This document shows positions 1,426-49,200 of a stretch of DNA of 64,000 bases, piece after piece (the stretch's first letter is position 1; the number at the start of each line of letters is the position of its first letter). Under the pieces are notes generated by a model. The model was not told the DNA's origin and searched no databases. It saw only the letters and a program-made list of their open reading frames with translations. Made by a program: the position numbers and the translations under genes. Source of the stretch: Tachypleus tridentatus. Lineage: Eukaryota; Arthropoda; Merostomata; Xiphosura; Limulidae. Location: the NCBI RefSeq assembly GCF_004210375.1, contig NC_134830.1, positions 1,550,001 through 1,614,000 of the forward strand, in the 5' to 3' direction.

Positions 1426-1439
1426 TTACTTCCTAGTTA

Positions 1440-19099: not shown

Positions 19100-19110
19100 T
19101 CATTCATACA

Positions 19111-20035: not shown

Positions 20036-20089
20036 ATTTAGTCATGTTGTAGCGTTTGCTTTCAAATCCTTTTAAATAATTGTTTCTTT

Positions 20090-23390: not shown

Positions 23391-24582
23391 ACTAAAACCA
23401 TAAAGTTCACTAGAACTAGGTCAGTGAAATAATAAAACCATAGAAACACACTGAGTCACTGGGAAAACTATAAGTTAATCATAGGTAAAGTACACGTGAT
23501 GTTACAAGAACACTACATTTAACAATTAATAAAACCATAGAAACACACTGAGTCACTGGGAAAACTATAAGTTAATCATAGGTAAAGTACATGTGATGTT
23601 ACAAGAACACTACATTTAACAATTAATAAAACCATAAAGTGCACTAGAATCAAGTCAGTAAAATAATAAAACCATAGAAACACACTGAGTCACTGGGAAA
23701 ACTATAAGTTAATCATAGGTAAAGTACACGTGATGTTACAAGAACACTACATTTAACAATCAATAAAACCATAAAGTACACTAGAACCAGGTCAGTGAAA
23801 TAATAAAACCATAGAAACACACTGAGTCACTGGGAAAACTATAAGTTAATCATAGGTAAAGTACATGTGATGTTACAAGAACACTACATTTAACAATCAA
23901 TAAAACCATAAAGTACACTAGAACCAGGTCAGTGAAATAATAAAACCATAGAAACACACTGAGTCACTGGGAAAACTATAAGTTAATCATAGGTAAAGTA
24001 CATGTGATGTTATAAGAACACTACACTTAACAATTAATAAAACCATAAAGTACACTAGAACCAGGTCAGTGTAATAATAAAACCATAGAAACACACTGAG
24101 TCACTGGGAAAACTATAAGTTAATCATAGGTAAAGTACATGTGATGTTACAAGAACACTACATTTAACAATCAATAAAACCATAAAGTACACTAGAACCA
24201 GGTCAGTGAAATAATAAAACCATAGAAACACACTGAGTCACTGGGAAAACTATAAGTTAATCATAGGTAAAGTACATGTGATGTTATAAGAACACTACAC
24301 TTAACAATTAATAAAACCATAAAGTACACTAGAACCAGGTCAGTGTAATAATAAAACCATAGAAACACACTGAGTCACTGGGAAAACTATAAGTTAATCA
24401 TAGGTAAAGTACATGTGATGTTACAAGAACACTACATTTAACAATCAATAAAACCATAAAGTACACTAGAACCAGGTCAGTGAAATAATAAAACCATAGA
24501 AACACACTGAGTCACTGGGAAAACTATAAGTTAATCATAGGTAAAGTACATGCGATGTTACAAGAACACTACATCTAACAAC
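23391..24582. repeat. 137-bp satellite, about 9 units, AP-1-like site per unit
   Basis: The unit contains AAACCATAGAAACACACTGA, GTCACTGGGAAAACTATAAG, TTAATCATAGGTAAAGTAC, GATGTTACAAGAACACTAC and ACTAGAACCAGGTCAGTG. Each holds TGAGTCA, the AP-1/TRE consensus. Two neighbouring units with GATGTTATAAG and CAGTGTAATAAT recur 274 bp apart (about 24001 and 24280), so a dimer was duplicated. The first unit is shorter and lacks the ACTAGAA part. Confidence 0.95.
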
Positions 24583-25223
24583 CAATTTATAGTTATGAAA
24601 CCCTACAATCTGAGTGCTTTCAAAATGGGTACTTTTCATTTTCAGAGGCATGTGTAACATTAACACCTTTCTTCAGTGTAACAATACTCAGCTGTTTGTG
24701 CTATCGAAACTGCGGAAGTGGTCTTACTGTGTGTCTTAAAGAATGTACTTTATTTTAAACATTTGACAGTTAATAAAAGTGTATGTTTATCTGGTTAAAC
24801 AGTAGCCTAAAGCTTGGCTGTAGGCCCTGGTACATATCTGTCTAGCCTACCATTACTAAATTAAGAATGAGTAGCCCAGTTAACTCTCGTATAGTTTCGG
24901 AAAACAGATCTCGTATTTACTGTGTGTACGAGTTTGCTTTGATTAAATAAAACAAATATTTAAACTGGTATCGATGTTTGTAAGAATGTGGCAAAACAAT
25001 CACTACTAGGGATCTGGAGTTTATTTAATGAAAAGAGCTTAGTAGCTAAACCTATTTAATCATACGTTACGTTACGATGTGGATAAAACAAAATGCTTAT
25101 AATAACTTTTATGTTCGTGGAATTGGAAGTACACGAAAAGAAAAAAGTGTATTTAAACACACCAACATCAGGAGGTCTTTTGTGTCTACCGGGCGGAATC
25201 GAAGCCGTGATTATAGCATTTTT
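24583..25223. other. Intergenic sequence, no gene seen
   Basis: Unique DNA. TTTGTGTCTACCGGGCGGAA to GATTATAGCATTTT (about 25180-25223) resembles a decayed tRNA-derived SINE of the second family also seen at 29688. No coding signal. Confidence 0.45.
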
Positions 25224-25235
25224 CTTTATTAATCT

Positions 25236-28200: not shown

Positions 28201-29664
28201 GTCTTTACTATATACTTCGAAACTTCGTTCCTTACCAAAGCATCCCACCTGGGGTTGTGTTTCCCTTCTTTGGTGGGCCATACGTTTTCAGAACAGACAA
28301 TATGCCATTGTTCCTTTTTGCCTTCGTATTCAGGTACAGTTAAATGAATTTGATCTGTCCTTGGATAACATTGCTATATCCACTGGCCAGCCCATCCCAC
28401 CATGGCTTCTTACAGTCCCCAGTTGTGACCTATCTTTAAGTCATTTGAGAAAAGTAGACACTCCTGATTAGAAATACTGTCTGTTATTTGCTGAACATCT
28501 TTCGAACCATCCTTATATTCCTATTTATACAGATGGTTCGAAGTCAGGTGACTGTGTGGGCTCTGTCATAGTTTGGTGGTTGCACGCATAATCCCTTTAC
28601 AACTGTTGAAGTGTACGTCATTTCTCTTGCCATGCATCACACAGAAGCTAAGCAGTACTCAAATTACACTATTTATACTGGCTCTGGAATCGTTTCACAT
28701 TAGTTCACACCCTGTTCTCGCCGATATTCAAAACCAACTGGCCCATTTCTCTTTAACATCTACTTTTATCTAGTTCTTCTGGATACCAGCCCACATTGGT
28801 ATTCGCGGTAATGGACTCGCCGACACCGTAGCTAAGTCTATCTGCTCTGACTCAATCACTACTGTGCCTATTACATACATGGACTATGGTCCTATATTCA
28901 AGGCTTGGCTCCACACAGTTGGCAATGGACTTGGACTGAGCGACGTGAAAACAAGCTTTTCCAAATAAAACCCTCTGTTGTACTATGGCAGTCCTAGGAA
29001 GTTGTTCTAACTAGACTACGCATTGGTCACAGTTTTTTACTCATTGTTTTCTGGTACTGATGCACCAGTGTAACACTCAGGTCACAATAAGCCACATTTT
29101 ACTGTCTTGCCGTCGTTACGACTCTCAACGACGGCACAATTTTAAACATGTTTTGTCCCAAGATTTGTGTGTAACATTAGAGAGTGTTAACTGTGACAGT
29201 GACACTGTCCACCTTAGACATGTTCGTAGTATTTTAAAAGCCATTAATCTTTTTAATGTTATTTAAGTGTTTTAATTTATACATTAGACATTTTAATGTG
29301 ATCCCCTTTAAGAATAAAAGTACATCTAGTTCGATATGAAATTAAAAAGTGGCCGTAACGTTAAATAACTCGAAACCAGTACTGGAAAGGCCAACTTCAG
29401 GTGACTAACGCTGATGTTTGAACTTATCCGCTAATAATCCTAGCGAGTTATGATAATTAGAATTATGCTACACAAAGTCCTTATACTCTGTAGTTATACT
29501 GAAGACTAGATCTGATTTAATGTTATTTATGTTTTTAATTCAAATATTCAACTTTGTTTTCTTTTACCTTAATTTCCTTTTAAGGATTTTACTTTAATTT
29601 TAACTTTTTACCGAATGTTCGACGCAGATAGTCTAGTTGCTAAAACAGCAAACCAAACAACCAA
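25236..29664 (+). mobile_element. I-type LINE, copy 2, internally deleted
   Basis: It starts CCCCTCGATATGAATTCCTG, matching the 5' end of the copy at 8604, and ends near AACAACCAA at 29664. The target-site duplication CTTTATTAATC lies at 25224-25234 and 29665-29675. ORF1 begins at ATG 25682 but is broken; the zinc-knuckle part is intact at 26136-26744 (CFECQRFGHSKTSC, CARCGGKNHDAYEC). At about 26730 the sequence jumps from late ORF1 to the linker before RT, deleting the entire endonuclease (about 1.2 kb relative to copy 1). RT (GFRRQHSTMDHL, LYIDNF in place of YVDDF), RNase H (WIPAHIGIRGNGLAD) and the C-terminal zinc segment follow with many shifts. A 3' hairpin lies at 29367-29449. Confidence 0.9.
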
Positions 29665-29687
29665 CTTTATTAATCCAACGTCATGGA

Positions 29688-29821
29688 GGATGTGTGTTTC
29701 TTATAACAAAGCCACAATGGTCTATCTGTTGAGTCCACCGAGAAGAATCGAACCACTGATTTTAGCGTTCTAAATTTTACCGTTAGTGTTGTAGACTTAC
29801 CGCTGTACCACCGAGGGACCC
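29688..29821 (-). mobile_element. tRNA-derived SINE, second family
   Basis: TTCTTATAACAAAGCCACAA, GGTCTATCTGTTGAGTCCAC, then GAATCGAACCACTGATTTTA (B-box-like on the - strand) and ACTTACCGCTGTACCACCGAG, the tRNA-like head in reverse. About 130 bp, decayed. It is adjacent to the LINE copy 2 target-site duplication. Confidence 0.65.
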
Positions 29822-29927
29822 TCATGGAGAGGATATAAACAGAAATTCATAATATGTCAAAACTTCTCACTGTATCTATCTGGATAATAAAGAAATATTA
29901 GTTAAAGGTAATTACTTGAGATAGCCT

Positions 29928-30218
29928 CCCGCTAGCACAGCGGTAAGTCTATGGATTTACAAGAGGTATTAAATAACCCTTGCATCTGACAGTCCTACCA
30001 ATTCAAGAGGTATTAAATAACCCTTGCATCTGACAGTCCTACCAATTCAAGAGGTATTAAATAACCCTTGCATCTGACAGTCCTACCAATTCAAGAGGTA
30101 TTAAATAACCCTTGCATCTGACAGTCCTACCAATTCAAGAGGTATTAAATAACCATTGCATCTGACAGTCCTACCAATTCAAGAGGCATTAAATAACCCT
30201 TGCATCTGACAATTCTAC
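29928..30218. repeat. SINE head fragment followed by 44-bp minisatellite (about 6 copies)
   Basis: CCTCCCGCTAGCACAGCGGT to TCTATGGATTTACAAG is a + strand head of the second SINE family. Directly after it, AAGAGGTATTAAATAACCC, TTGCATCTGACAGTCCTACC, AATTC repeats with a period of 44 bp. The array replaces the SINE body. Confidence 0.85.
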
Positions 30219-31348
30219 TGTTCAACAGGTCATTCTGTTGTACTAAGTTTTTTTATTTCATTATTTTATTACTCTGTCAACAATCAAAGTTCAGGTGCAC
30301 AATATTAGGTTATATACAATAATATAATGACAAGTCAGCAGACACAGTTTACATGAAACATTTATATATTTATGTTGAGGTAACATGATAAAAAGTTAGC
30401 AGAGATAGTTTGGATCACACAATTACATTTAACTAACTTAATGACGAGACAGTTTGGATCAAATGTTTGTATATTTATGTTTATGTAACATAATAACAAG
30501 TCAGGAGACACAGTATGGATGAAAAATTTATATATTTATGTTCAAGGAACCCAATGACAAGATTTGCCAATGTTTTCTCATAAGACAGTACAAAGGGAAT
30601 CATTTTGAATGTGTTCCATCAATAACATAAAGTCCCCACTTGTAGATGTATTTAACAATAACTTAAAGAAAGAAACAAGTTTCTTTATTTAACTGTAATC
30701 ATAAATCTACAGATAGACAGCATATAAATGACAATTATACACAATTCAGAAAATTATTTAGTACAAATGTTTTGGATTAATCAGTATGGTATAAAGTTTT
30801 CACACAAAATATTTACCAAACCTTCGATACTCTGGCACATTGTTCCTTTCATTTTATATCGAACATAATACACAAATTATTTGTATTAACAAGTTGTTGT
30901 TTTACATTTAGGACTCATGGAATTTATAGATGTGATTAAAAACAGTCTTTCATACAAATCCCAGGTAGTGTTGAAACAACAGGTACATAGTTGACTCACA
31001 AAACCTGGGAAAGGCAGGGTAACAAAGATGTGTGAAGGAAGGAATTATACTTGAGAGAAAAAATATCTGTTAACAGTTCTAGAGTAAAATGCTTTGAATG
31101 GCTGTCAGCAGTGGATCCTTATGGCCTCTTAATTAGCTGAAATAATTATTAAGACATAACTTGTGGTAAAAACAGACATCATTGTACACTATTTTAGTTG
31201 CTATAGAAATACCTCATTCTTCAGATATTCATTATTTTGCTGGACATCAGTAAACTGAGATAATAATGGCTTCTATCCATCATATGTAAACCTTGACAAC
31301 ACTGGGCTACAACAGGATAATGGAACAGGATATTCTGTAGATATATCT
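30219..31348. other. Putative 3' UTR and 3' flank of the FGF-like gene (- strand)
   Basis: AT-rich unique DNA downstream of the FGF-like stop on the - strand. The reverse complement of TTTATT at 30684-30689 gives AATAAA about 660 bp after the stop and is the best polyadenylation candidate I see; no transcript evidence is available. No other gene was recognised. Confidence 0.4.
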
Positions 31349-31531
31349 TCAACTGGGTGATTGCTTCAGCCACATGGTGGCTCTCTGCCTTGACCTTGTT
31401 TTGTGACCTTTTTTTGGTTTTCCGTTTTTCCTTATCCCAAGATACCACTTGTGGTATTTCTTAGACTCGTACTGGAAGTAATCAGACTCAAAGTTTTCAA
31501 TGAAAAGTACTTCATCGGAGTTAGGATTGTC
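31349..31531 (-). CDS. Fibroblast growth factor-like protein, terminal coding exon
   Basis: FGFs are secreted ligands that bind FGF receptors together with heparan sulphate. Reading the - strand, the acceptor TTTATCTCAG ends at 31532 and the exon enters in phase 0: DNPNSDEVLFIENFESDYFQ, YESKKYHKWYLGIRKNGKPK, KGHKTRSRQRATMWLKQSPS, stop. This matches the last third of the FGF beta-trefoil (F-x-E-x-x-E-x-x-Y-x-x-Y...KKY...WY-(V/L)-(G/A)-(L/I)-(K/R)-x-x-G-x-x-(K/R)-x-G-x-(K/R)-T). The basic run KNGKPKKGHKTRSRQR is the expected heparin-binding loop. The exon start at about the D/Q-T-P-N-E position in phase 0 is the classic FGF exon 2/3 boundary. The Cys usually found in the E-C-x-F strand is Val here. 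The subfamily is unresolved. Confidence 0.93.
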   Translation of the reverse strand, partial: DNPNSDEVLFIENFESDYFQYESKKYHKWYLGIRKNGKPKKGHKTRSRQRATMWLKQSPS

Positions 31532-32655
31532 CTGAGATAAATAAAAACACATAATGAAACGTTTGTAGGTATAGAGAGGGAAACAAAAATGGCTAAACCT
31601 TTCAGAATGTGCAATAGTTAAGATTATAGCTGTTTTACTAACTGAAAGTACAATTATTCTCCGAAATTATTTTCCAGAAACAAGGGTCAATCACACATGA
31701 CAAGCATTAAACACAAGTACAACACAGATCTGTTTCACAAACCATGACATTAACTCTACAATTTAACATTTATTTTCTAGCTTTAGTAGCACTAGTTTCA
31801 TTTGTTAATAAGAGTTTGATGAACTCATTACCTTTATCAAGGAAACATAAAACAAACATTCATAAAATGATATTTGAACAATGTTACACGTGCAGTATCA
31901 TGTTTAAAAATGATCCAACAGTCGACCTCAATTTGAAAACATTAGATGTTTCATCATAATAAAAATACAAACCACTAGAATGGTACCCTGGTGATGTTAA
32001 AAGGGTTGAATAATGAAATTCTAACAATATTCTAATACAATTCACATGATTTTCTAACTAGCATGGCCAAATTTTCCAAGAATTATAACCACAACCAAAG
32101 TTTTGTTTTCCTGTGGTTCTACTAAAACACTCATTACATGGAACATTCATGGTTATATAACTGATTTGTTGTACAAAACATGTTAAAAAAACTCAGATGA
32201 CCACTTATCTAGAATACAAACATATACAGCTGGAGTACATGTGGTAATGTTGACATGAAAGCCAAATGTTACTAACATGAAGTGAGTGAACCATGTGCCA
32301 GGTTAATATGACTCCTAAGTTACTGCCAGTTCATCAATATTACCAGAAGTAAAGCTGATTTCTTCCTAAAGCTTCCACTTCTTGCTGAACTGTACTCAAG
32401 TCCAGGCATCATCAGTTACTATGTTTCTTCTCACCAGTTGAATCCAGCAGACACATCTATCAGATGAACAATTTGACAATTCACAACTTCAGAAGTGTCA
32501 CAGAATTCAAGATACCATTCTCATACTGTATGACATTCATAGTACAGTGATATCTACTGCTGATGTGTTGTCCACTAGCTGCTCAACTGTTAAATATATT
32601 AGGAACCACATACTGTTAGAAGTTTCTTGAAAAGTTTACTGGATCCAGTATTCTT
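31532..32655. other. FGF-like intron, right part, no other feature
   Basis: AT-rich intron between the terminal FGF-like exon and the inserted LINE copy 3. The 71-codon + strand frame at 31744-31959 has no recognised family. The bases CCAGTATTCT at 32646-32655 probably form the LINE target site. Confidence 0.6.
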
Positions 32656-35600
32656 CCCTTGGTGTGAATTTTTGTATATGATGGTGGGATCTCCTAGAGA
32701 AGGTTCTGTTCTTTCAGTTTACCTCCTATGAGATCTAAACATTCACCTTGTGAAGGGGAGGAGAGGACCCTAGTGGTTGAGGAGTCTAACCTGAACATGC
32801 TACTTTGGCCTTAAATTCCTATAGACAGGAATCTTTGAGGTGGCCCCAAGGGTCAATCAGCTGGCCCACTTTGCCTAGTTCAACTGAGTACCAGTGTTGG
32901 ACGTTCTCAACAGGTGTTGTGGACATCGTATCTGATGCTGATGTTTGGGAATAGTGCTCACGAAACCCTGGCATTGCTGCAGTGTCCTTGTTTGGCACTG
33001 TTGTGTGTCCCCTCGTAAGGCTCCATGTTGGGTGGGGTCAATGGGCATCAAAATATTCTTTCTTTATGATGGATCCCCAATTAAAAATAAAAATAGATCA
33101 TAGGTAAAGTACCATGACTCAAAAATTCTGAGCAGCAATCTTCAACTTCTTCAACACCTGTACCTCGTATTCTGATATTACATTCTTCATCAGACAAACC
33201 TGAAGGCAAATGTCTCCCTTTTGTTTTTTATTCAGAAGGGACTAAAGGGGCTTGCTGGCTCTTCTAAGTCCGACAAAAAGTTACGTTCTGGGGACATTTT
33301 GGTGGAAACATTCACTCCTAAACACAGTGAACTCCTCTTGCATTTGAAGGCCATTGGGGATACACTCATTAAAGTTATTCCCCATGCTACTTTGAATTCG
33401 CCATGAGGACTTATTAATGAAAGAGATTTGAAGAACATCCTCGAGTTATAAATCCTTGTTGTCCAAAGGAGTTTCTCCAGTGAGGCATGTCTCCACTTGC
33501 AAAGATGGAATTATGATGCCAACCAATTTTCTAATTTTGACGTTTGCTTCACCATGGCCGCCTACCACCATAAAGACAGGTTATCTAAATTGCAAAGTAT
33601 GGCCATATATTCCAAACCCTCTGAAATTTTCCAATTTTAGCTGTTCAGTCACTCAAGGATATCATGTTGTGGTTCCTTGGTGTGTGCTTGTTGTGGTGGC
33701 AAGGACCATGTTGTTTATGAGTGTGAAATAGACTCTCATTGTGTTAACTGTAGTGGAACTCACCCATCTTACTTTTGTTTATACCCTAGATATTGGAATA
33801 AAAAGAGGTACAACGTTTGAAAATGGTTCACAACATTTCTTGCCCCAAAGCTCGAAAGTTACTGTCCACCACCCGTCTAAGACATATACTGCTGCACTCC
33901 AGTCCTCTGCTACAATGGAAGACCAGACAAATCTCTCTGTGCCTCCAAAAGAATCGTTTTCAAACCACATGAAAAGTCTGTTGCCCTCCATAGTTATGAA
34001 AGTTGATGAGTCGACATCAACACTCATCTCTGTCCCTACCATTCCTTCCAGTAGATCCCTAGATCCACTTCCTTTGGTTCCAGGTTTGGGTATTTCCTTG
34101 GGCCCACCTTCTTCTTTGATCCCAAGATGTAGAACAATTATTCGTTCATGCCTTCTGAAACCTACATATACAGTCACCTTTCAGCAGGTTTCTTTGTACA
34201 GAAATGACAAGTTGTATGATGAATGGGTGCATGGAGGGGTGACACTGCTGGTCGATTGGCATGTGATCACCCTGTCTTTGCCACTTAGCACACCCTTGGA
34301 GGTAGTAACCATCAGAGTTTCCTTGGGTCGTACCATCACTGTTTGTTCTTTCCATCTGTCTCCTGGAAACACCTATGATCAATCAGACTTTGTTGTTCTC
34401 GTTGAACAGTTGCTATCTCCCTTTTTAATCATTTTAACGGACATAATACTATTACTATTGATAGAAGGGAGTCGCACCATAGAGCATATGCTCTCGGACC
34501 ACAACTCTTCTCTTTTCAGTACTGGTATTTATACATACTTTTATGCACCTGGTCATTCTTGTAATGCTATTAATTTCTCAGTCTGCTCCCTCTTCACTTT
34601 TCCTGGAAGGCTGACAGTAACCCCTGGAGCAGTGATCATTATCCTGTCATTTTGAGAGAGACTGATCATGGCCAATGCCACTTGACCCAGGGGACCTGGT
34701 GGAAGTTGGACCAGGCTAATTGGCCCTCTTTCACTGGTCTCTTAGAAATTGATTCTGCCATTGTCTGTAAGTCATCGATAGACGACTGAGTGGCAGCAGT
34801 GACCGAGTGTACTATCCAGGCAGCTTATCAATGTATTCTTAAAACCTCAACACTTTTTCCACAGTATCCTCGTCCGTATGAAATCCTGCCCACCACATGG
34901 CACAGAAGGCTCAAAAACGGGTCTGGGATACCTTTCGTAGGTATCCCACACTTTCAAACCGTATCACTATTCAATGGGCCCGTGCAAATGCTCGGCAGGT
35001 ACAATGTCAAACCCAGAAGGAATCTTGGATTACATTCACAATTAGCATCTCTTCTACCACCAGTTCCATAAGGGACAAGATTTGGAAGGTTAGTGGGCAG
35101 TATACTTCTGTCCCCCCTTATGATTTTGCTCTCTGATGGCCAGGAAGTAGCTGATACTCAGAGCATCGCCAATACTCTAGGTGAAAGCTTTTGCTATTTA
35201 TCTAACACTTCTACTTTATCCTCCACCTTCTTAGCCATCAAGACTCGGGCAGAGCGATCACCTCTTTACTTTCGAGCTGATCCTCTCTCTGACTATAATT
35301 GCCACTGGTGAAATTCAAACTGGCCCTTCATCGGTCGGACCTCATGATACACACTACGAGAAGCTGCATCATCTCTTTCTTGCTTATTTTGCTATTCTTC
35401 TCGTTGTGTTTAACTGGATCTGGCAGGAGAATGCTTTCTCTAAGCCTGAGAAGGATCTCAAGATTCCTTCAAACTATAGTCCAATTGCTTTGACAAGCTG
35501 TCTCTAAGACCATAGAGAAGATGGTTAATGTTTGGTTCCTCAAATCAAATTATTCTCGCCAACCAAGTGTGTATCCTGACAACAGCACTCTACCATGAAC

Positions 35601-36799
35601 AGCCTGATTTAACTTGAAATGTCAGTCAGAGAAGCCTTTCTCAAACGACATTGTCTGTCAGTATTATTTCACCTTGATAAAATTTACGTCATAATATTCC
35701 ACATGTTACGGTCTTGCCGTCTCAACACAGGTTTACCCCTAACACTGGACAATGTCACTGGCAATGATGACATTGTCCCTTTACAAATTTGTTTTAGTTT
35801 TCTGAGGATCATTGATCTTTTAATGCTATTTAAGTTTTTAATTTATAAATTAAACCTTTTTTAAGGTGACTCCTTTTAGGAATTACAGCACAACGATAAG
35901 GAATTAGAAAACAGTCGTAACGTCAGAACTGGAAAGGTAAACTTCAGGTGTCTAACACTAATGTTTGTATTTACCTGTTAGTTATCCTGGTGAGATATGA
36001 TAATCACAATTATGCTACAGATAATCCTTTACAACTTTTATTACTGTATTCTTTGTTATTTAAGCAGAATATTCGTGATGAAACTGTAGGCAGAATATTC
36101 GTGATGAAACTGTAGACAGAATATTCGTGATGAAACTGTAGACAGAATATTCGTGATGAAACTGTAGACAGAGTATTCGTGATGAAACTGTAGACAGAAT
36201 ATTCGTGATGAAACTGTAGACAGAATATTCGTGATGAAACTGTAGACAGAATATTCGTGATGAAACTGTAGACAGAATATTCGTGATGAAACTGTAGACA
36301 GAATATTCGTGATGAAACTGTAGACAGAATATTCGTGATGAAACTGTAGGCAGAATATTCGTGATGAAGAATATTCGTGATGAAACTGTAGGCAGAATAT
36401 TCGTGATGAAACTGTAGACAGAATATTCGTGATGAAACTGTAGACAGAATATTCATGATGAAACTGTAGACAGAATATTCATGATGAAACTGAAGACGAA
36501 AAGCGGAAGACTTTCGAAACGTCATCCTCTACACTTGTGTCTCCACAACAGGAAGTTGTCGTCCATTCTACAAAGTTTCATCATTGTATTACTGTAGTTT
36601 TGTTTTCTTACCGCTGTAGACTAAATGTAAAAATTGGATTCAATGTTATTTATGTTTTCTACTCATAAATTAAACTATTTTGTTTTAACATGATTCTTTT
36701 TATGAATGTTGATAATTTTGCTTTAACGTTTTACCGGTTGTTTGGAGCACACAGCATAGTTGCTTTGCGTCATTAAACGCCAAACAGCCAACCAACAAA
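32656..36799 (+). mobile_element. I-type LINE, copy 3, internally deleted, with embedded minisatellite
   Basis: It starts CCCTTGGTGTGAATTTTTG, homologous to the other LINE 5' ends. It keeps decayed ORF1 (RSGDILVETFTPKHSELLLH; zinc knuckles damaged) and endonuclease text. It lacks about 0.3 kb at the ORF1/ORF2 junction (near 34165) and most of the RT and RNase H (jump near 35680). The 3' UTR has one hairpin remnant (35922-35996), is interrupted by a 26-bp array (36064-36492) and ends near CAAACAGCCAACCAACAAA. Imperfect target-site duplications are CCAGTATTCT (32646-32655) and CCAGGATTCT (36800-36809). It lies antisense within the FGF-like intron. Confidence 0.85.
36064..36492. repeat. 26-bp minisatellite, about 16 copies, inside LINE copy 3
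   Basis: The unit is GACAGAATATTCGTGATG then AAACTGTA. One unit (36361-36373) is shortened. It gives a 171-codon open frame on the - strand, which is an artefact. It is followed by CGGAAGACTTTCGAAACGTC, a hairpin-like text unlike LINE sequence, so array plus flank may be a separate small insertion. Confidence 0.93.
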
Positions 36800-36809
36800 C
36801 CAGGATTCT

Positions 36810-37258
36810 AGGCGATCAATTGTACTGATGGTCTGACAATGCGATGACCTCACTTGTAGCCACTGTATAACGGCGTATGTTTGACAAACTTGTCACATAA
36901 CTATTGCTTTCCACGTCACTGAAGTAAACAAATGTCTTATTTATGGTCATTACATTATGAACTTGAATTTCTTAAAACTCTGCTATTCTTAAAATTTCTA
37001 ACATTGGGTATCTTCAATTTTATATGAAGCTGAAATACATCATTAGGCCACACGAGTGGTGAAATAACATATGAAATGCACACATTAAACCACAGAAATG
37101 GTAAACAAACACATGACTGGACTCGGGAATATCACCGATACGTTTTAATGGAAACTATGAATTTCCCTATATTGTTTTGACTAATATAAAAATCACAATT
37201 TAAGAAACCAGTGTGGGTCATAGAGCATCACCAAAACACAGATATCGTGACCTGTTAC
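36810..37258. other. FGF-like intron, no other feature
   Basis: Unique AT-rich intron between LINE copy 3 and the middle FGF-like exon. Nothing recognised. Confidence 0.6.
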
Positions 37259-37365
37259 CTGTGCATATAGATTTCCATTTTCATTCATAGCCACATACTT
37301 TCCTGCTGTTGTTCCTCTAATTTTCACTCCTTCTCCGTTAGGCGTCAGAGAGACCGAAAAGGTTC
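37259..37365 (-). CDS. Fibroblast growth factor-like protein, middle exon
   Basis: On the - strand, the acceptor TATGGTAG ends at 37366 and the donor CAG|GTAACA begins at 37258. The two first bases complete Gly from the previous exon. The exon reads TFSVSLTPNGEGVKIRGTTA then GKYVAMNENGNLYAQ. It matches the FGF core segment with (V/I)-x-I-(R/K)-G-x-x-(A/T)-x-(R/K)-Y-(L/V)-A-M-(N/K)-x-x-G-x-L-Y. Length is 107 nt against the typical 104 nt for FGF exon 2, with the same phases (1 in, 0 out). The conserved Cys before A-N-R-Y-L-A-M is Thr here, so both hallmark core cysteines are absent. Confidence 0.95.
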
Positions 37366-37865
37366 CTACCATAGAAAAAAATTTGTCAGTAAGAAACATA
37401 AAACCGAATAAGCTAAGTTTATCCAGCTAATTACAAATAGTTGTTTGAAAATTGTATAGAATATTACCATTAACAGAGCTAATGACGTCACTGTTTGATA
37501 TAAAACATACCTCACTGATTCAGATGAATACAATGAATTAGGATGATAAACAGAAACAATAATATCGGATACAACATTTCACCCTTATGACACCGTTTGT
37601 AGTAAGTGTGTTAAACACTCAAAGTGAATAAACAGCAGTTCTTGATTTTAAATTACTAGCCAGAATAAATGGAAACAGCCAAAAGCACCTGCCGCCACAC
37701 AGGCTTTCTACAGCTCTTCCAACCGCACTATGGCACTAATAAAGTTATTACTCAACCACCGTGAAAATGCATTTTGTTTTCTGCAACACCACATCATGAA
37801 GCGTTTTGCTTTTGATTTACTGCTCCATAAGCTAACACTGATCACTTACAGCCGAACAAGTTTAG
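37366..37865. other. FGF-like intron, no other feature
   Basis: Unique intron sequence between the middle exon and the SINE. A 60-codon + strand frame (37730-37912) runs into the SINE and is not supported. Confidence 0.5.
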
Positions 37866-38140
37866 TTGGTTTTGAATTTCACGCAAAGCTACACGAGGGC
37901 TATCTGCGCTAGCCATTCCTAGTTTAGCAGTGTAAGACTAAATGGAAGGCAGCTAGTTATCACCATCCAACTCCAACTCTTGGGCTACTATTTTATCAGC
38001 AATAGTGGGATTAACCGTCACATATAATGCCTCCCAATGGCTGAAAGGGCAAGCATGTTTGGTGTGACCGGTATTCGAACCCGCAACCCTCAGATTGGGA
38101 GTCGAGTGCCCCAACAACTCTAGCCTAGTAAGAGGCAAAA
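37866..38140 (-). mobile_element. tRNA-derived SINE (same family as 19111), - strand
   Basis: It starts with the tail end GGTTTTGAATTTCACGCAAA, followed by the body GAGGGCTATCTGCGCTAGCC. The head TATTCGAACCCGCAACCCTC is the reverse complement of the B-box region. The A-box end (CAACAACTCTAGCCT) is decayed. It lies in the FGF-like intron in the same orientation as the gene. Confidence 0.85.
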
Positions 38141-38499
38141 TGAGCTACACGGAAAGTTAAAACGCTATATGAAAGACTGAATAGAATATTTCCCGGAGAT
38201 CATAACAACTCACTACAACTTTTGTACTACTTAGCTGTTGTACACTTAAACAGAGTTCATCATTTAATTATTATTGTTCTACCTAATAAATATGTCATCG
38301 AAAATATTATTTCATACACAAAATCAATCAACAGATGTTAACAAGGGCAATGACGTCATATTACTACTGCAATATTAACCCTACTAGTGTAAAACCACAC
38401 CAATTTGATCTAAGTATAGGCAACATGTCTGCAACACTGCGTAAAATCCTTTTATGATCATTCTTGGGTAGTGTGAGAAGAAAAGACATGTTTTCATTG
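38141..38499. other. FGF-like intron, no other feature
   Basis: AT-rich intron DNA with no recognised element. Confidence 0.5.
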
Positions 38500-38968
38500 A
38501 CCACAGCTTGTCGGGATACGATGTGGTTTTAGTTAAAGAATCTCTGGTCAACAGCTTGTCGGGATACGATATGGTTTTAGTTAAAGAATCTCTGGTCAAC
38601 AGCTTGTCGGGATACGATATGGTTTTAGTTAAAGAATCCCTGGTCAGCAGCTTGTCGGGATATGATATGGTTTTAGTTAAAGAATCTCTGGTCAACAGCT
38701 TGTCGGGATACGATATGGTTTTAGTTAAAGAATTCTTGGTCAACAGCTTGTCGGGATACGATGTAGTTTTAGTTAAAGAATCCCTGGTTAGCAGCTTGTC
38801 GGGATATGATATGATTTTAGTTAAAGAATCCTTGGTTAGCAGCTTGTCGGGATACGATATAGTTTTTGTTAAAGAATCCCTGGTTAGCAGCTTGTCGGGA
38901 TACGATATAGTTTTAGTTAAAGAATCCTTGGTTAGCAGCTTGTCGGGATATGATATGATTTTAAAGAG
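38500..38968. repeat. 48-bp minisatellite, about 9.6 copies
   Basis: The unit is CAGCTTGTCGGGATACGATA, TGGTTTTAGTTAAAGAATC, then CCTGGTCAA. A 16-codon period produces open frames on both strands (155 codons on +, 119 on -) with the peptide repeat SLSGYDMVLVKESLV, which I judge to be an artefact in an intron. Confidence 0.94.
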
Positions 38969-39465
38969 TTCCTAGTGAAATTTTTTTTTTCGTTCAAGCT
39001 AAACGAGTTAGTTTAGCTTCTTTCAAAACTCTAATTAATCGATACATAAATGTTGTTTCTGATAAAGTAATTTATATTAATGGTTAATTCATTGTAAGCG
39101 ATACTTGACATGTACGTAATCGTTCTCAACTTTAGAGACCTATTTTCTTGCTTTGTTTTAATAATCTGTAAAATTACTCTTCTGATGTTCTTGTCTTCCC
39201 TTTATCAAGTGTAAACATTCGCTTTTATTGTTAACATTTGATAAGGATTTTGGTTCTGTAGGACAATAACCCAACTGGCAGGCTAAAATAAATTAAAACA
39301 CATGCTTCACTCACATGTATCTTCGTTTGTTGTTCCATACCTGGTGTAGCGTCTCGACATTCAATTCGCTACGTGATATTTGGGACTAACTGATTTGTTT
39401 ACTATACAGTAATCTGTCATCGTGATAAAAAGATAAATAAATTGGTGTTAAATTCATTTAAAACA
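38969..39465. other. FGF-like intron, no other feature
   Basis: AT-rich unique DNA with no recognised element. Confidence 0.5.
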
Positions 39466-39678
39466 TTGCTTCACATGAACTCAGAATACGCTGGATGACT
39501 AGCAGGTGGAATGGTTCATTGCTTCACGTGAACTCAGAATACGCTGGACAATTAGCAGGTGGAATGGTTCATTGCTTCACGTGAACTCAGAATATGCTGG
39601 ACGATTAGCAGCTGGAATGGTTCATTGCTTCACGTGAACTCAGAATACGCTGGACGACTAGCAGGTGGAATGGTTCAG
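39466..39678. repeat. 53-bp minisatellite, 4 copies, with CACGTG
   Basis: The unit is CATTGCTTCACGTGAACTC, AGAATACGCTGGACGACTAG, CAGGTGGAATGGTT. Three of four units carry an E-box CACGTG (the first has CACATG). It directly precedes a SINE fragment. Confidence 0.92.
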
Positions 39679-39701
39679 AGATTAACGGGAAAGTAATGTT
39701 T

Positions 39702-39896
39702 TGTTTTTGAATTTCGCACAAAGCTACTCGAGGGCTATCTGTGCCAGCCGTCCCTATTTTAGCTGTGTAAGGCTAGAGGAAAGGCAACTAGTCATCACCA
39801 CCCACCGCCAGCTCTTGGGCTACTCTTTTACCAACGAATAGTGAGATTGACCATAACAATATAACGCCCCTAAGGCTGAAAGGACGAGCATGTGCT
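39702..39896 (-). mobile_element. tRNA-derived SINE, head-truncated, - strand
   Basis: TGTTTTTGAATTTCGCACAA, ACTCGAGGGCTATCTGTGCC and GGGCTACTCTTTTACCAACG match the SINE body. Homology ends at about GAGCATGTGCTTGGC, before the tRNA-like head, so this copy is 5'-truncated. Confidence 0.85.
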
Positions 39897-40436
39897 TGGC
39901 TCTTTATTTAATTATGAATTAATAATCTGGGACGGCTGTTCTCAATTAGTTGTGGTGAGAAAGTCAGAAACCAACAAAATAGCGTGTGGTACAAATCAGT
40001 AAGGCAATTATTTCTGACAAGTATCAAGTACTGTTGTTTTTTTCCTGTAATAATACACCGACGAGAATCCAACCAGGAACATTTCGTTCGTAAACCTACC
40101 ACTGATCTTTCAGTGGGTAGAAGATATGATATATTGTTAGTGTTTTCTTAGTGCAAATCTACACAACGAAGTATCCCTGGTCTGTTCACCACGGAGAATC
40201 GAACCTATGGAAGAGGGGGGTAGATAAGTATTACACTATATACAGAGTACAGTGACAGTAGGAACACACGTGGTTAAATTTTATCTCCAATGCGCATGCG
40301 TATATTTGAAAAGTAGAAAGAGTTTAAGTGAATAAACAGAGACTGGGCAGCACCCTCTGGCTATCAATCGCTGAGCCTCTGGGTCGCCATCTATGAAACA
40401 TTAAGTTAATTATAATCGGTCGGCTATATGTGGATT
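39897..40436. other. FGF-like intron with SINE-like relics
   Basis: Two decayed tRNA-like stretches, around 40020-40100 (ACCGACGAGAATCCAACC) and 40140-40215 (CACGGAGAATCGAACCTATG), look like - strand relics of the second SINE family. No gene. Confidence 0.45.
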
Positions 40437-41190
40437 GACAGTATGAACAACTTTTTACTCATGGAAACTTGACTAACAATAACAGTATGAACAACTTTTT
40501 ACTCATGGAAACTTGACTAACAATAACAGTATGAACAGCTTTTTACTCATGGAAACTTGACTAACAATAACAGTATGAACAACTTTTTACTCATGGAAAC
40601 TTGACTAACAATAACAGTATGAACAACTTTTTACTCATGGAAACTTGACTAACAATAACAGTATGAACAGCTTTTTACTCATGGAAACTTGACTAACAAT
40701 AACAGTATGAACAACTTTTTACTCATGGAAACTTGACTGACAATAACAGTATGAACAGCTTTTTACTCATGGAAACTTGACTAACAATAACAGTATGAAC
40801 AACTTTTTACTCATGGAAACTTGACTAACAATAACTGTATGAACAACTTTTTACTCATGGAAACTTGACTAACAATAACAGTATGAACAACTTTTTACTC
40901 ATGGAAACTTGACTAACAATAACAGTATGAACAACTTTTTACTCATGGAAACTTGACTAACAATAACAGTATGAACCACTTTTTACTCATGGAAACTTGA
41001 CTAACAATAACAGTATGAACAACTTTTTACTCATGGAAACTTGACTAAAAATAACAGTATGAACAACATTTTACTCATGGAAACTTGACTAACAATAACA
41101 GTATGAACAACTTTTTACTCATGGAAACTTGACTAACAATAACAGTATGAACAACTTTTTACTCATGGAAACTTGACTAACAATAACATG
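40437..41190. repeat. 44-bp minisatellite, about 17 copies
   Basis: The unit is AACAGTATGAACAACTTTTT, ACTCATGGAAACTTGACTAA, CAAT. Very uniform; variants are single bases (aacagc, aaccac, gactgac). It lies in the FGF-like intron. Confidence 0.95.
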
Positions 41191-42307
41191 AACAACTTAT
41201 CAACTTGTACACAAAGTTTAACGTTGTATCAACAACTCGCATCATTTGATATTTGTTAATTTAGTTTAAAGTTTTACTAAAGGATATAAACGTGAAGTAC
41301 ACGAGAGAACAAATGACCAATCAATGTTTTGTATTCTACTTTTAAAATTCACACATTTTCTATCCAACAATTTATTTATAACTTGAAGAACATAAACAGT
41401 TAAAAAGATACTTTAAATATTGGTAATCTATACCGAATGGTTCTTAACATTACCGAGAACTAATAAACAAATTTACTCTTTGTTATGTAATACTAATATA
41501 TAACAATATACATACTAAATATATTATAGAAACTTGTATAATGTACATATAAATGACTTAAGTCCGTGTAATAATACAATAAAATGTGCACATGTAAAAC
41601 AGAAAGCTGAGTGCTGATAACGTAGGTTTAGGAAACTGCTCTTTACCATTTTGTTTTTTAACTTTCAACGTAAAGAAATTATTGCATATTTTATGTCCAC
41701 CGTTGGGCGGCGCTCCATACAAAATGAAAACTTTCCATGATAAAATATGGGAAAATGTCCAGTATTACACGTGATGCGTCTTGTCTGTTGCATTGATGTC
41801 AGTTTCCGACAGCCAAAGAGAAGGTTCGTTGAAATTCTAATATCTGACCAAAGGTCGCACACCTGGGTCAGCTGGTACAAGTGTAATAAAGTGCAAGAGA
41901 AAAGAAATAAAAACCACCAAAAGAAACGAATCTGAGTAAAAGATGGTAAAATATAAAGAAGTCAGACATCTGATGTGATCTGGTTGGTCATCCAATCAAT
42001 ACTGATAAAAAAATTCACATCTTTACACTAATACAATGCCAGCAACATCGGTGAGGAATGAATTAGGTCGGGGGGCATTTTAGGGCCTGATTCACTTAAA
42101 TGGCAGGCTCCACTTACCCTCTCCCACTTTCTAGTAATCTATCAACCAGTTGAAAGGGATCATCCATTTAGTATGTGGCAGCTTTGTAGCATCAACCCTC
42201 CAACCTCTTCCCTACGTTCCTTTAAGAAAATGGATCTGAAGCCATTCTCTCTCCAAATGACCAAACGACTGTTATCTGGCTGTAAGGTGAAGTATAAAAA
42301 GAAGATT
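41191..42307. other. FGF-like intron, no gene recognised
   Basis: Unique DNA. Overlapping open frames at 41665-41935 (62 codons on +, 71 on -) and 42173-42415 (+) match no family I know and lack supporting splice or initiation context. Confidence 0.45.
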
Positions 42308-43640
42308 ATTCCACGTGTTGTTGACACCGTTAATATAAACAGCAGTTGTCTAAATCAGTGTCTGGTACCTCCACGTGTTAGTTCCCTGGCAGTATTGTTA
42401 ACACCGTTAATATAAACAGCAGTTGTCTAAATCAGTGTCTGGTACCTCCACGTGATAGTTCCCTGGCAGTATTGTTAACACCGTTAATATAAACGGCAGT
42501 TGTCTAAATCAGTGTCTGGTACCTCCACGTGTTAGTTCCATGGCAGTATTGTTAACACCGTTAATATAAACGGCAGTTGTCTAAATCAGTGTCTGGTACC
42601 TCCACGTGTTGGTTCCCTGGCAGTATTGTTAACACCGTTAATATAAACAGCAGTTGTCTAAATCAGTGTCTGGTACCTCCACGTGTTGGTTCCCTGGCAG
42701 TATTGTTAACACCGTTAATATAAACAGCAGCTGTCTAAATCAGTGTCTGGTACCTCCACGTGTTGGTTCCCTGGCAGTATTGTTAACACCGTTAATATAA
42801 ACAGCAGCTGTCTAAATCAGTGTCTGGTACCTCCACGTGTTGGTTCCCTGGCAGTATTGTTAACACCGTTAATATAAACAGCAGCTGTCTAAATCAGTGT
42901 CTGGTACCTCCACGTGTTGGTTCCCTGGCAGTATTGTTAACACCGTTAATATAAACAGCAGCTGTCTAAATCAGTGTCTGGTACCTCCACGTGTTGGTTC
43001 CCTGGCAGTATTGTTAACACCGTCAATATAAACAGCAGCTGTCTAAATCAGTGTCTGGTACCTCCACGTGTTGGTTCCCTGGCAGTATTGTTAACACCGT
43101 CAATATAAACAGCAGCTGTCTAAATCAGTGTCTGGTACCTCCACGTGTTGGTTCCCTGGCAGTATTGTTAACACCGTCAATATAAACAGCAGCTGTCTAA
43201 ATCAGTGTCTGGTATCTCCACGTGTTGGTTCCCTGGCAGTATTGTTAACACCGTTAATATAAACAGCAGCTGTCTAAATCAGTGTCTGGTACCTCCACGT
43301 GTTGGTTCCCTGGCAGTATTGTTAACACCGTTAATATAAACAGCAGCTGTCTAAATCAGTGTCTGGTACCTCCACGTGTTGGTTCCCTGGCAGTATTGTT
43401 AACACCGTTAATATAAACAGCAGCTGTCTAAATCAGTGTCTGGTATCTCCACGTGTTGGTTCCCTGGCAGTATTGTTAACACCAATATTATAAACAGCAG
43501 CTGTTTAAATCAGTGTCTGGTATCTCCACGTGTTGGTTCCCTGGCAGTATTGTTAACACTGTTAATATAAACAGCAGCTGTCTAAATCAGTGTCTCGTAT
43601 CTCCACGTGTTGGTTCCCTGGCAGTATTGTTAAAACCGTT
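42308..43640. repeat. 77-bp satellite, about 17 units, E-box per unit
   Basis: The unit is TGTTAACACCGTTAATATAA, ACAGCAGCTGTCTAAATCAG, TGTCTGGTACCTCCACGTGT, TGGTTCCCTGGCAGTAT. Nearly every unit carries CACGTG, and most also CAGCTG (the left units have CAGTTG). Homogeneity is high in the middle (42600-43400) with decay at the right end. It lies in the intron between the first visible and middle FGF-like exons, ending about 450 bp from the former. Confidence 0.95.
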
Positions 43641-44096
43641 AACATAAACAAAAAGGGTTTAAATCTGGCACTTTCACATGTTGTTAATACAGCTACTATA
43701 AACAGAAAACATCTGATGGTGTCTCGCACTAACTTATCGTTTTGCCGAATTTTACTTTTCTACATTGATGTAACATACACTTAAATCTGACATCTGTTCC
43801 AATCTCAACGAAATCAAATAGTGGTCATTTGTCTCAGTTATTATTGGGTCAAGTGGCTGTACCATTACTTTGGAAGCACTTCCACATTCTCCTAACATAC
43901 AAGATCTTGATACGACTGTCAGGTTTACAAACATCTGATGTTAAGATGAAAACACGGGTCACAGAAAATACAGAAATGAATTATTTGAAAGCGAGAAGTG
44001 AGACCCCTCCCCCAAGTTATGTTTTTATTTCAGATCACATGAACGATTAGATGGCTGATGGTTTGTTATTTACAGTAACATTTAATAAACACTCAC
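43641..44096. other. FGF-like intron next to the donor site, no other feature
   Basis: Unique DNA ending (in gene orientation, starting) with the GTGAGTG donor at 44096. Short frames are unsupported. Confidence 0.5.
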
Positions 44097-44211
44097 CATC
44101 ACCCTGTTTGTTCTTTCTACCGAATATGTTTCCTTCCTTGTCCATAGTCAGGAAGTATCCGTGCTTGTTGTAAAGACGGCTGCAGCTCACCCTACAAGAG
44201 CCTTCGTCATC
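44097..44211 (-). CDS. Fibroblast growth factor-like protein, first visible exon
   Basis: On the - strand, the acceptor TTTTGATTACAG ends at 44212 and the donor GATG|GTGAGT begins at 44096. The exon reads DDEGSCRVSCSRLYNKHGYF, then LTMDKEGNIFGRKNKQGD plus the first base of Gly. SRLYNKHGYFLTMDKEGNI corresponds to the first FGF core strands (K-R-L-Y-C-x-x-G-x-F-L-x-I-x-x-D-G-x-V), and the phase-1 donor is the standard FGF exon 1/2 boundary. The three exons join without a stop to 134 residues, the whole trefoil core. An upstream exon with the start codon and any signal peptide is implied by the acceptor but was not found up to 46262; beyond that lies satellite DNA. Two Cys (SC-x2-SC) precede the core. 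Confidence 0.92.
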
Positions 44212-44362
44212 CTGTAATCAAAAACACACGTTCAGAACCCAACACCATAAGTCTGAGATTTTGAAACAGAAACAAGAAGACATATCTTAAAAGGCTGGTA
44301 CAGTTATGTCACCGTGATTGACTGTTTACTGAAAGGGGGTGGATCATGTCTGCGACCTCTAG
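44212..44362. other. Sequence upstream of first visible FGF-like exon
   Basis: It carries the polypyrimidine/acceptor region of the exon on the - strand and no other recognisable feature. Confidence 0.5.
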
Positions 44363-44369
44363 TGACCGA

Positions 44370-45522
44370 ACGTTTTCTACAAACTCAGTTCCCCTCCACA
44401 GCATGGTTTCATCCACCTTTCCTTTACGTTTTCTACAAACTCAGTTCCCCTCCACCTTTCCCTTACGTTTTCTACAAACTCAGTACCCCTCCACAGCAGG
44501 GTTTCATCCACCTTTCCCTTACGTTTTCTACAAACTCAGTTCCCCTCCACTGCAGGGTTTCATCCACCTTTCCCTTACGTTTTCTACAAACTCAGTTCCC
44601 CCCACAGCAGGGTTTCATCCACCTTTCCCTTACGTTTTCTACAAACTCAGTTCCCCTCCACAGCAGGGTTTCATCCACCTTTCCCTTACGTTTTCTAGAA
44701 ACTCAGCTCCCCTCTACTGCAGGGTCTCATCCACATTTCCCTTACGTTTTCTACAAACTCAGTTACCCTCCACTACAGGGTTTCATCCACCTTTCCCTTA
44801 CGTTTTCTACAAACTCAGTTCCCCTCTACTGCGGGGTTTCATCCACCTTTCCCTTACGTTTTCTACAAACTCAGTTCCCCTGCACTGCCGGGTTTCATCC
44901 ACCTTTCCCTTACGTTTTCTACAAACTCAGTTCCCCTCCACAGCAGGGTTTCACCCACCTTTCCCTTACGTTTTCTAGAAACTCAGTTCCCCTCCACAGC
45001 AGGGTTTCATCCACCTTTCCCTTACGTTTTCTACAAACACAGTTCCCCTCCACAGCAGGGTTTCATCCACCTTTCCCTTACGTTTTCCACAAACTCAGTT
45101 ACCCTCCACTGCAGGGTTTCATCCACCTTTCCCTTACGTTTTCTACAAACTCAATTCCCTCCACAGCAGGGTTTCATCCACCTTTCCCTTACGTTTTCTA
45201 CAAACTCAGTTCCCCTCCACAGCAGGGTTTCACCCACCTTTCCTCCACGTTTTCTACAAACTCAGTTCCCTCCACAGCAGGGTTTCATCCACCTTTCCCT
45301 TACGTTTTCTACAAACTTAGTTCCCCTCTACTGCAGGGTTTCATCCACATTTCCCTTACGTTTTCTACAAACTCAGTTCCCCTCCACAGCAGGGTTTCAT
45401 CCACCTTTCCCTTACGTTTTCTACAAACTCAGTTCCCCTCCACAGCAGGGTTTCATCCACATTTCCCTTACGTTTTCTACAAACTCAGTTACCCTCCACT
45501 GCAGGTTTTCATTCACCTTTCA
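44370..45522. repeat. 56-bp minisatellite, about 21 copies
   Basis: The unit is GTTTTCTACAAACTCAG, TTCCCCTCCACAGCAGGGTT, TCATCCACCTTTCCCTTAC. Single-base length changes (e.g. near 44600, 45150, 45260) shift frame, yet a 409-codon + strand frame and a 210-codon one stay open because the unit lacks stops in several frames. It is not a gene. C/T-rich on +; it lies within 160 bp of the FGF-like exon. Confidence 0.95.
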
Positions 45523-46269
45523 CTTGCTATAGCCAAGTGCTAACAATATGTTCTCAGTATGTTTAGGCTTAAGAATTTTGCTATATATTTCGTTTTCGCA
45601 TTATACTTTGGATAACTTCTACTTTTCTTTAGAATATATTACCTACATAAAGAGAAGTATAAATATTATAAATATTTCACAAACACTTAAAACAATTACA
45701 GTTTCTAACAACTTCAGTATTAAGATCTGTCCTAAATAGATAGCCTATTTCACATAAGTATTTATGATTGAACAGTTAGACATTAGTAGAATCACTGTTT
45801 CTCATGACTGCTTTCCAGAATACATTATTACATTTAGTCATAAAACTTTATCCTCACCAAATACCCAGCGATAAGATGCGGGCTAGCGCTGCTAAAAATC
45901 GGGTTTTGATACCTTCAGCTAGCAGAGTAGAGTCCATTATGTATTGAATTTGTGCTTCACAAACAGCCAATCTATAAAAAACTGTGGACAGTTATAACAA
46001 AAAAATTAAGTTTTACAAACTGGAAATGGTTCCAAAACGCAGTTAATTTATTGAGCGAAAACTCGGCTCAAATTATATTTTTGTTTCAATGAAAGCTACG
46101 TAACAAAATATATTAATTATCCAGAGTAGGGTCCCCATTCTCGGACTTGAGTGTTGTAAGATCTATTAAAGCCGTACCAATGTGAACAGAGAAAATATCA
46201 TTTTAAATTTAACGTTATCTCCCATGATGTATCAACGGAAACTTTATCATCCGTTCAGTCGTGAATAGA
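45523..46269. other. Unique sequence between two arrays, SINE-like relic
   Basis: CTAGCGCTGCTAAAAATCGG to TTTGTGCTTCACAAACAG (about 45883-45968) resembles a decayed + strand SINE of the second family. The - strand was scanned for an FGF N-terminal exon without success. Confidence 0.4.
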
Positions 46270-49200
46270 ACAGCAAATACAACAGAGCTGTTGGAAATAA
46301 CAACCTATCGTAAACAGTTTTAATAACGTCATTATTTACTGACTGAGTATGGTAAGTAGAACAGAGCTGTTGGAAATAACAACCTATCGTCAACAGTTTT
46401 AATAACGTCATTATTTACTGACTGAGTACGGTAAGTAGAACAGAGCTGTTGGAAATAACAACCTATCGTAAACAGTTTTAATAACGTCATTATTTACACA
46501 CTCACTACGGTAAGTAGAACAGAGCTGTTGGAAATAAAAACCTATCGTAAACAGTTTTAATAACGTCATTATTTACTCACTCAGTACAGAAAGTAGAACA
46601 GAGCTGTTGGAAATAACAACCTATGGTCAACAGTTTTAATAACGTCATTATTTACTCAATCACTACGGTAAGTAGAACAGAGCTGTTGGATATAACAACC
46701 TATCGTAAACAATTTTAATAACGTCATTATTTACTCACTCAGTACGGTAAGTAGAACAAAGCTGTTGGAAATAACAACCTATCGTCAACAGTTTTAATAA
46801 CGTCATTATTTACTCACTCAGTACGGTAAGTAGAACAGAGCTGTTGGAAATAACAACCTATCGTCAACAGTTTTAATAACGTCATTATTTACTCACTCAC
46901 TACGGTTAGTAGAACAGAGCTGTTGGAAATAACAACCTATCGTCAACAGTTTTAATATCGTCATTATTTACTCACTCAGTACGCTAAGTAGAACAGAGCT
47001 GTTGGAAATAACAACCTATCGTCAATAGTTTTAATAACGTCATTATTTACTCACTCACTACGGTTAGTAGAACAGAGCTGTTGGAAATAACAACCTATCG
47101 TAAACTCATTTAATATCGTCATTATTTACTCACTCGGTACGGTAAGTATAACAGAGCTGTTGGAAATAACCTGTCGTCAACAGTTTTAATATCGTCATTA
47201 TTTACTCACTCACTACGGTAAGTAGAACAGAGCTGTTGGATATAACAACCTATCGTAAACAGTTTTAATAACGTCATTATTTACTCACTCAGTACGGTAA
47301 GTAGAACAAATCTGTGGGAAATAACAACCTATCGTAAACAGTTTTAATAACGTCATTATTTACTCACTCAGTACGGTAAGTATAACAGAGCTGTTGGAAA
47401 TAACAACCTATGATCAACAGTTTTAATAACGCCATTATTTACTCACTCACTACGGTAAGTAGAACAGAGCTTGGAAATAACAACCTATCGTCAACAGTTT
47501 TAATAACGTCATTATTTACTCACTCACTACGGTAAGTAGAACAGAGCTGTTGGAAAAAACAACCTATCGTAAACAGTTTTAATAACGTCATTATTTACTC
47601 ACTCAGTACGGTAAGTAGAACAAAGCTGTTGGAAATAACATCCTATCGTCAACAGTTTTAATAACGTCATTATTTACTGACTCGGTACGGTAAGTAGAAC
47701 AGAGCTGTTGGAAATAACAACCTATCGTCAACAGTTTTAATAACGTCATTATTTACTCACTCCGTACGGTAAGTAGAACAAAGCTGTTGGAAATAACAAC
47801 CTATCGTAAACAGTTTTAATAACGTCATTATTTACTCACTCAGTACGGTAAGTAGAACGGAGCTGTTGGAAATAACAACCTATGGTCAACAGTTTTAATA
47901 ACGTCATTATTTACTCACTCATTACGGTAAGTAGAACAGAGCTGTTGGAAATAACAACCTATCGTAAACAGTTTTAATAACGTCATTATTTACTCACTCA
48001 GTACGGTAAGTAGAACAAAGCTGTTGGAAATAACAACCTATCGTAAACGGTTTTAATAACGTCATTATTTACTCACTCAGTACGGTAAGTAGAACAGAGC
48101 TGTTCGAAATAACAACCTATTGTCAACAGTTTTAATAACGTCATTATTTACTCACTCACTACGGTAAGTAGAACAGAGCTTGGAAATAACAACCTATCGT
48201 CAACAATTTTAATGACGTCATTATTTACTCACTCACTACGGTAAGTAGAACAGAGCTTGGAAATAACAACCTATCGTCAACAGTTTTAATAACGTCATTA
48301 TTTACTCACTCACTACGGTAAGTAGAACAGAGCTTGGAAATAACAACCTATCGTCAACAGTTTTAATAACGTCATTATTTACTCACTCACTACGGTAAGT
48401 AGAACAGAGCTGTTGGAAATAACAACCTATCGTCAACAGTTTTAAAAACGTCATTATTTACTGACTCGGTATGGTAAGTACAACAAAGCTGTTGGAAATA
48501 ACAATCTATCGTCAACAGTTTTAATAACGTCATTATTTACTCACTCAGTACGGTAAGTAGAACAGAGCTGTTGGAAATAACAACCTATCGTTAACAGTTT
48601 TAATAACGTCATTATTTACTCACTCACTACGGTAAGTAGAACAGAGCTGTTGGAAATAACAACCTATCGTCAACAGTTTTAATAACGTCATTAATTACTT
48701 ACTCACTACGGTAAGTAGAACAGAGCTGTTGGAAATAACAACCTATCGTAAACAGTTTTAATAACGTCATTATTTACTGACTGAGTATGGTAAGTAGAAC
48801 AGAGCTGTTGGAAATAACAACCTATCGTCAACAGTTTTAATAACGTCATTATTTACTGACTGAGTACGGTAAATAGAACAGAGCTGTTGGAAATAACAAC
48901 CTATCGTAAACAGTTTTAATAACGTCATTATTTACTCACTCACTACGGTAAGTAGAAAAGAGCTGTTGGAAATAATAACCTATCGTCAACAGTTTTAATA
49001 ACGTCATTATTTACTGACGAAATACGGTAAGTAGAACAGAGCTGTTGGAAATAACAACCTATCGTAAACAGTTTTAATAACGTCATTATTTACTGACTCG
49101 GTATGGTAAGTACAACAAAGCTGTTGGAAATAACAACCTATCGTCAACAGTTTTAATAACGTCATTATTTACTCACTCACTACGGTAAGTAGAACAGAGC

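Follow-up and report, generated by a model that had tools for sequence, protein, structure and literature searches.

We analyzed a 64,000-nucleotide stretch of the horseshoe crab Tachypleus tridentatus (the window; assembly GCF_004210375.1, NC_134830.1, hereafter C6, positions 1550001-1614000), which starts 1.55 Mb from the beginning of a sequence of 169.7 Mb. The genome carries coagulin genes (19 matches at E up to 0.001), and pieces from three coagulogen exons, 131 residues in total, are identical to PDB 1aoc, a T. tridentatus structure, apart from the artificial junction in the query. The window very probably carries the 3' part, encoding the core, of a genuine FGF1/2-type gene; a nearby inverted copy is most likely the other allele, kept in the assembly as a haplotig. 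On sequence comparison, C6 carries a real gene whose protein has been kept under constraint: a paralogue on a second sequence of the assembly (C4) has the same architecture, is identical at 84 of 134 residues and shows few nonsynonymous relative to synonymous differences. The C6 core exons span 12.9 kb (positions without a prefix are those of the window):

44097..44211, minus strand: FGF core exon 1, 115 bp long, with the acceptor in phase 0 and the donor in phase 1, DDEGSCRVSCSRLYNKHGYFLTMDKEGNIFGRKNKQGDG
37259..37365, minus strand: FGF core exon 2, 107 bp long, with the acceptor in phase 1 and the donor in phase 0
31349..31531, minus strand: FGF core exon 3, 183 bp, with the stop codon TGA and the basic stretch RKNGKPKKGHKTRSRQR

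Exon 1 is preceded by TTACAG and followed by GTGAGT, exon 2 is preceded by GGTAG and followed by GTAACA, and exon 3 is preceded by CTCAG. Joined, the exons give 405 bp, that is, 134 codons plus TGA with no internal stop. An earlier note on this DNA had proposed the three exons with AG/GT sites, junction phases 1 and 0 and 134 residues without a stop, and all of this proved correct when the sequence was re-read. AATAAA signals lie downstream of the stop, the first at 659 bp and others further away. The reading frame of exon 1 is closed upstream of the exon; one or more 5' exons are therefore missing, as suspected in the note.

The joined protein matched the Pfam FGF profile (PF00167; gathering cut-off 24 bits) with 101.9 bits (E 3.1e-29) over profile positions 3-124 of 124. 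Taken alone, exon 3 scored 50.3 bits (E 3e-13), exon 2 scored 22.9 bits (E 8.8e-5), below the curated cut-off, and exon 1 reached only E 0.033. Exon 1 is independently backed by the C4 paralogue, in which the acceptor codon, length and phase are the same. In a PDB search with the C6 protein, FGF2 and FGF1 came out on top, with E values from 7.6e-18 (among the best 60 of 135 matches). The profile, the PDB matches and the phylogenetic tree described below thus agree on a chelicerate FGF gene, as had been proposed from the letters.

Human FGF1 and FGF2 have two core introns in phases 1 and 0 and a middle exon of 104 bp. The C6 gene likewise has core phases 1 and 0, here around a middle exon of 107 bp, and this FGF core exon pattern, recognized by the earlier note, is repeated at C4. 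As in vertebrate FGF1 and FGF2, a basic stretch is present toward the C-terminus, within exon 3; the "heparin loop" is in this sense kept, and binding of heparan sulfate would be expected from its sequence. The C6 gene differs from FGF1 and FGF2 in having an extra intron just upstream of the core, and in its core cysteines.

The C4 paralogue has the following exons:

C4 73405430-73405316, minus strand: exon 1, 115 bp, 64% identical to C6 over 39 residues
C4 73401579-73401473, minus strand: exon 2, 107 bp
C4 73401184-73401002, minus strand: exon 3, 183 bp, 71% identical to C6 over 56 residues

Splice sites, the exon lengths of 115, 107 and 183 bp and the phases are the same as at C6, and the C4 protein matched Pfam FGF with 107.1 bits (E 7.7e-31). 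Between the two genes the proportion of nonsynonymous differences (pN) was 0.217 versus 0.772 for synonymous differences (pS); synonymous sites are saturated, and we therefore give no ratio of nonsynonymous to synonymous substitution rates (dN/dS). The C4 paralogue spans 4.4 kb (12.9 kb at C6) and, unlike the C6 gene, has few tandem repeats nearby. Whole-genome searches with the C6 or C4 protein, in which the best 15 and 17 candidates were scored, gave only weak matches beyond the known loci (C10, E 0.6; C2, E 9).

We aligned 11 vertebrate FGF cores with the C6 and C4 proteins and built a tree from these 13 rows, with no further arthropod rows. The two horseshoe crab proteins joined FGF1 and FGF2 with support of 94/97, just under the 95/80 that the program marks with a star. 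The order within this group was not settled by the tree, and FGF23 formed a long branch. In pairwise comparison, too, both paralogues score highest against FGF2 and FGF1, clearly so for the C4 copy, with 209 and 193 versus 172. The earlier note had left the subfamily open. It had indeed not fixed the placement, but this can be narrowed to FGF1/2, as measured against vertebrate FGFs only. Genes of FGF1/2 type are already on record for a tick, insects and a centipede. One article describes such genes in arthropods, Ixodes among them (PMC3420111), another groups a centipede (Strigamia) FGF with FGF1 (PMC4244043), and Tribolium is also among the species named in this literature. The C6 gene is in this respect an ordinary FGF1/2-type gene.

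Both hallmark core cysteines had been noted as replaced, by Thr and Val. Both are indeed gone and the second is Val, but by alignment the first is Asn rather than Thr. The first position is Asn in both C6 and C4. It also lacks Cys in 6 of the 11 vertebrate rows (FGF8, 18, 10, 12, 13 and 23), and the first core cysteine is therefore not defining for the FGF family. The second position, as in DEC-x-F, is Val in C6 and Thr in C4, whereas all 11 vertebrate rows have Cys there. This second cysteine is typical of FGF but not part of its definition, since neither the profile match nor the architecture depends on it. It is conceivable, though rather unlikely, that horseshoe crabs or chelicerates possess an FGF1/2-type ligand pair without both core cysteines as a separate class with altered redox stability or export, in which the C6 member evolved faster toward a separate role after genome duplication. 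A published genome study reports that horseshoe crab genomes were duplicated in three rounds (PMC7815833).

To look for the missing 5' exon, 42 kb around the C4 paralogue (minus strand) were compared with 264 kb at C6, using stop-to-stop pieces of at least 18 residues. Pieces overlapping C4 stretches with at least six hits were dropped beforehand as dispersed repeats. The best-ranked hits kept were the known exons, and the first 40 hits held no further exon. Weak hits at C6 ~1644400-1645150 (E 0.003-0.08) were rejected as an exon: they mark a diverged repeat with stops in every frame, which is present at three places that are 67-79% alike.

A second copy of the FGF exons lies on the plus strand outside the window (C6:1513168-1513282, 1519955-1520061 and 1525787-1525969), inverted and 55-81 kb from the first, and its exons are 100% identical to those in the window. 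Gaps of 500 Ns occur at C6:1492742-1493241, 1549609-1550108 and 1608751-1609250, and they bound two contigs:

C6:1493242-1549608: contig A, between 500-N gaps
109..58750 of the window, no strand assigned: contig B, likewise flanked by 500-N gaps; contig A is contained in its reverse complement

Counting matches of at least 97% over at least 200 bp, 30,456 of 30,567 tandem-masked bases of A were matched in the reverse complement of B, with a mean identity of 99.50%. Past the end of A, contig B continues for another ~6.6 kb (window 109 to ~6694), which A lacks. No match of A or B at the same thresholds was found in the compared parts of the two neighbouring contigs, which amounted to 52.7 kb (16.2 kb unmasked) and 94.8 kb (46.2 kb unmasked). 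Copy numbers in tandem arrays differ between the contigs (17.1 versus 15.1 in a 44-bp array; 17.3 versus 18.3 in a 77-bp array). Contig A thus lies inside B, both are bounded by gaps, and the two are about 99% or more identical in unique sequence, as is characteristic of a retained haplotig. In our interpretation the inverted copy is most likely the second allele, which the assembly has retained, and not a gene duplication. The present assembly comprises 2.17 Gb, whereas two further T. tridentatus assemblies measure 1.72 and 1.94 Gb (PMC7815833), and this surplus agrees with kept second haplotypes. A search of the open-access literature gave, among the results listed, no heterozygosity figure for T. 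tridentatus.

Several observations weigh against the assignment to FGF1/2 and the view of an intact gene. The comparison of 264 kb at C6 with 42 kb at C4 brought no start codon or 5' exon to light, the second core cysteine is lost in both copies, and these two proteins are the only arthropod rows in the tree. There the C6 branch has a length of 0.55 versus 0 for C4; the C6 copy has changed more. For this copy FGF1 (173) hardly scores above FGF8 (172), both behind FGF2 (185), with FGF18 (165) and FGF12 (164) following closely. Such scores would also be expected of a member of another subfamily (FGF8-like or FHF/FGF11-14-like), several of whose vertebrate members likewise miss the first core cysteine. 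We nevertheless consider this unlikely: both paralogues match FGF2 and FGF1 best, if clearly only for C4, the tree support is 94/97, and the genome carries a separate second FGF group (see below). The longer branch and the missing 5' exon would also suit a decaying gene or pseudogene whose 5' exon or promoter was lost amid minisatellites while C4 does the work, and tandem repeats (with gaps) indeed make up 52% of the 264 kb at C6 versus 6.6% of the 42 kb at C4. However, the open frame, the intact splice sites and the low pN relative to pS speak for a maintained gene, the exons are identical on both haplotypes, and the 5' exon was not found at C4 either, which makes decay quite improbable.

The inverted order, with exons 100% and unmasked sequence 99.5% identical, could alternatively reflect a true palindromic gene duplication held alike by gene conversion. 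We give this little credence, as nearly all of A lies within B and both are gap-bounded, no such homology runs on into the compared parts of the flanking contigs, and the array lengths differ as between alleles. On the same grounds of containment and identity, we set aside the inverted duplicate as new biology. A beta-trefoil protein outside the FGF family, or a chance join of three exons, has next to no probability. Fascin, the only other Pfam family listed for the joined protein, matched weakly with 28 bits, and the IL1 profile gave 12.3 bits on exon 3 alone; the far higher FGF scores of the same sequences rule out both and answer the concern, raised in the earlier note, that a non-FGF beta-trefoil might match better. 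A chance join is ruled out by the identical exon lengths and phases of the C4 paralogue, and a processed copy by the presence of introns.

If the locus is an FGF1/2-type gene with its second allele beside it, an upstream exon would supply the start codon, and the product would fold as an FGF beta-trefoil, be secreted or exported, bind heparan sulfate through its basic C-terminal stretch and activate an FGF receptor tyrosine kinase. Export, heparan-sulfate binding and receptor activation are known FGF family biology, and vertebrate FGF1 and FGF2 are not known to have a classical signal peptide. If the inverted copy is indeed the second allele, retained as a haplotig and placed next to its partner during scaffolding, the C6 locus would amount to one gene per haploid genome.

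We also identified a second group of FGF-like exons in the genome:

C10:53834034-53834342: second FGF group exon, Pfam FGF 27.6 bits (cut-off 24)
C7:181258253-181258558: second FGF group exon, 70% identical to the C10 exon
C8:146307351-146307647 and C8:146349570-146349866: second FGF group exons, 59% identical to the C10 exon
C2:98729341-98729538: possible member of the second FGF group, 33% identical to the C10 exon, E 0.009

The C10, C7 and C8 exons keep the core cysteine (RCLFEE). The group is 38% identical to the C6 gene in the matching stretch (E 0.09-0.12). The two C8 copies lie 42 kb apart on the same strand and are 99.8% identical over 421 bp; they may represent a further retained haplotig or a tandem duplication of recent date.

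The introns of the C6 gene are rich in repeats, none of which interrupts an exon:

37366..44096, minus strand: intron 1, 6.7 kb, with two repeats of the short interspersed nuclear element (SINE) type and four minisatellites
31532..37258, minus strand: intron 2, 5.7 kb, with a long interspersed nuclear element (LINE) fragment and a 26-bp minisatellite at 36065-36497

The earlier note's description of a LINE, two SINEs and at least four minisatellites was borne out, with five minisatellites located. The LINE fragment, with matches over 32656-36038, is related to copies elsewhere in the window; related stretches lie at ~8605-14417 and 25277-29486, and in the former the endonuclease and reverse transcriptase domains are spread across several frames. 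The dispersed repeats in intron 1 (37853-38125 and ~39690-39900, among the matches listed) are short, and their size and copy number suggest SINEs.

Around the gene, C6:1440001-1704000, near one end of C6, is about half minisatellite with many different units (among the arrays listed), and the minisatellite share around the C4 paralogue is far below this. Upstream of the FGF gene, a 12.5-kb array with a 79-bp unit (46281-58750) runs up to the assembly gap, and an array of the same unit begins contig A. Directly after the gap, a 50-bp satellite with 99% matches fills 59251-64000 and continues through the next 10 kb, for at least 14.7 kb. Scans for tRNAs and Rfam families returned no genes and no families.

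The earlier note's description of the gene as previously hidden goes further than our results. For the T. tridentatus assembly CNA0000821, which serves as the reference of the species in PMC12427568, 34,966 annotated genes are given in Table 1 of PMC7815833, and no paper on horseshoe crab FGF ligands was among those listed by our searches of the open-access literature. Our analyses enlarge the set of FGF genes recorded for horseshoe crabs by two of FGF1/2 type and by three or more other FGF-like loci. They also call for caution, as seeming inverted duplications in the present assembly can be alleles and thereby inflate paralogue counts. The gene set should help in following how FGF genes duplicated in the wake of the genome duplications of horseshoe crabs.

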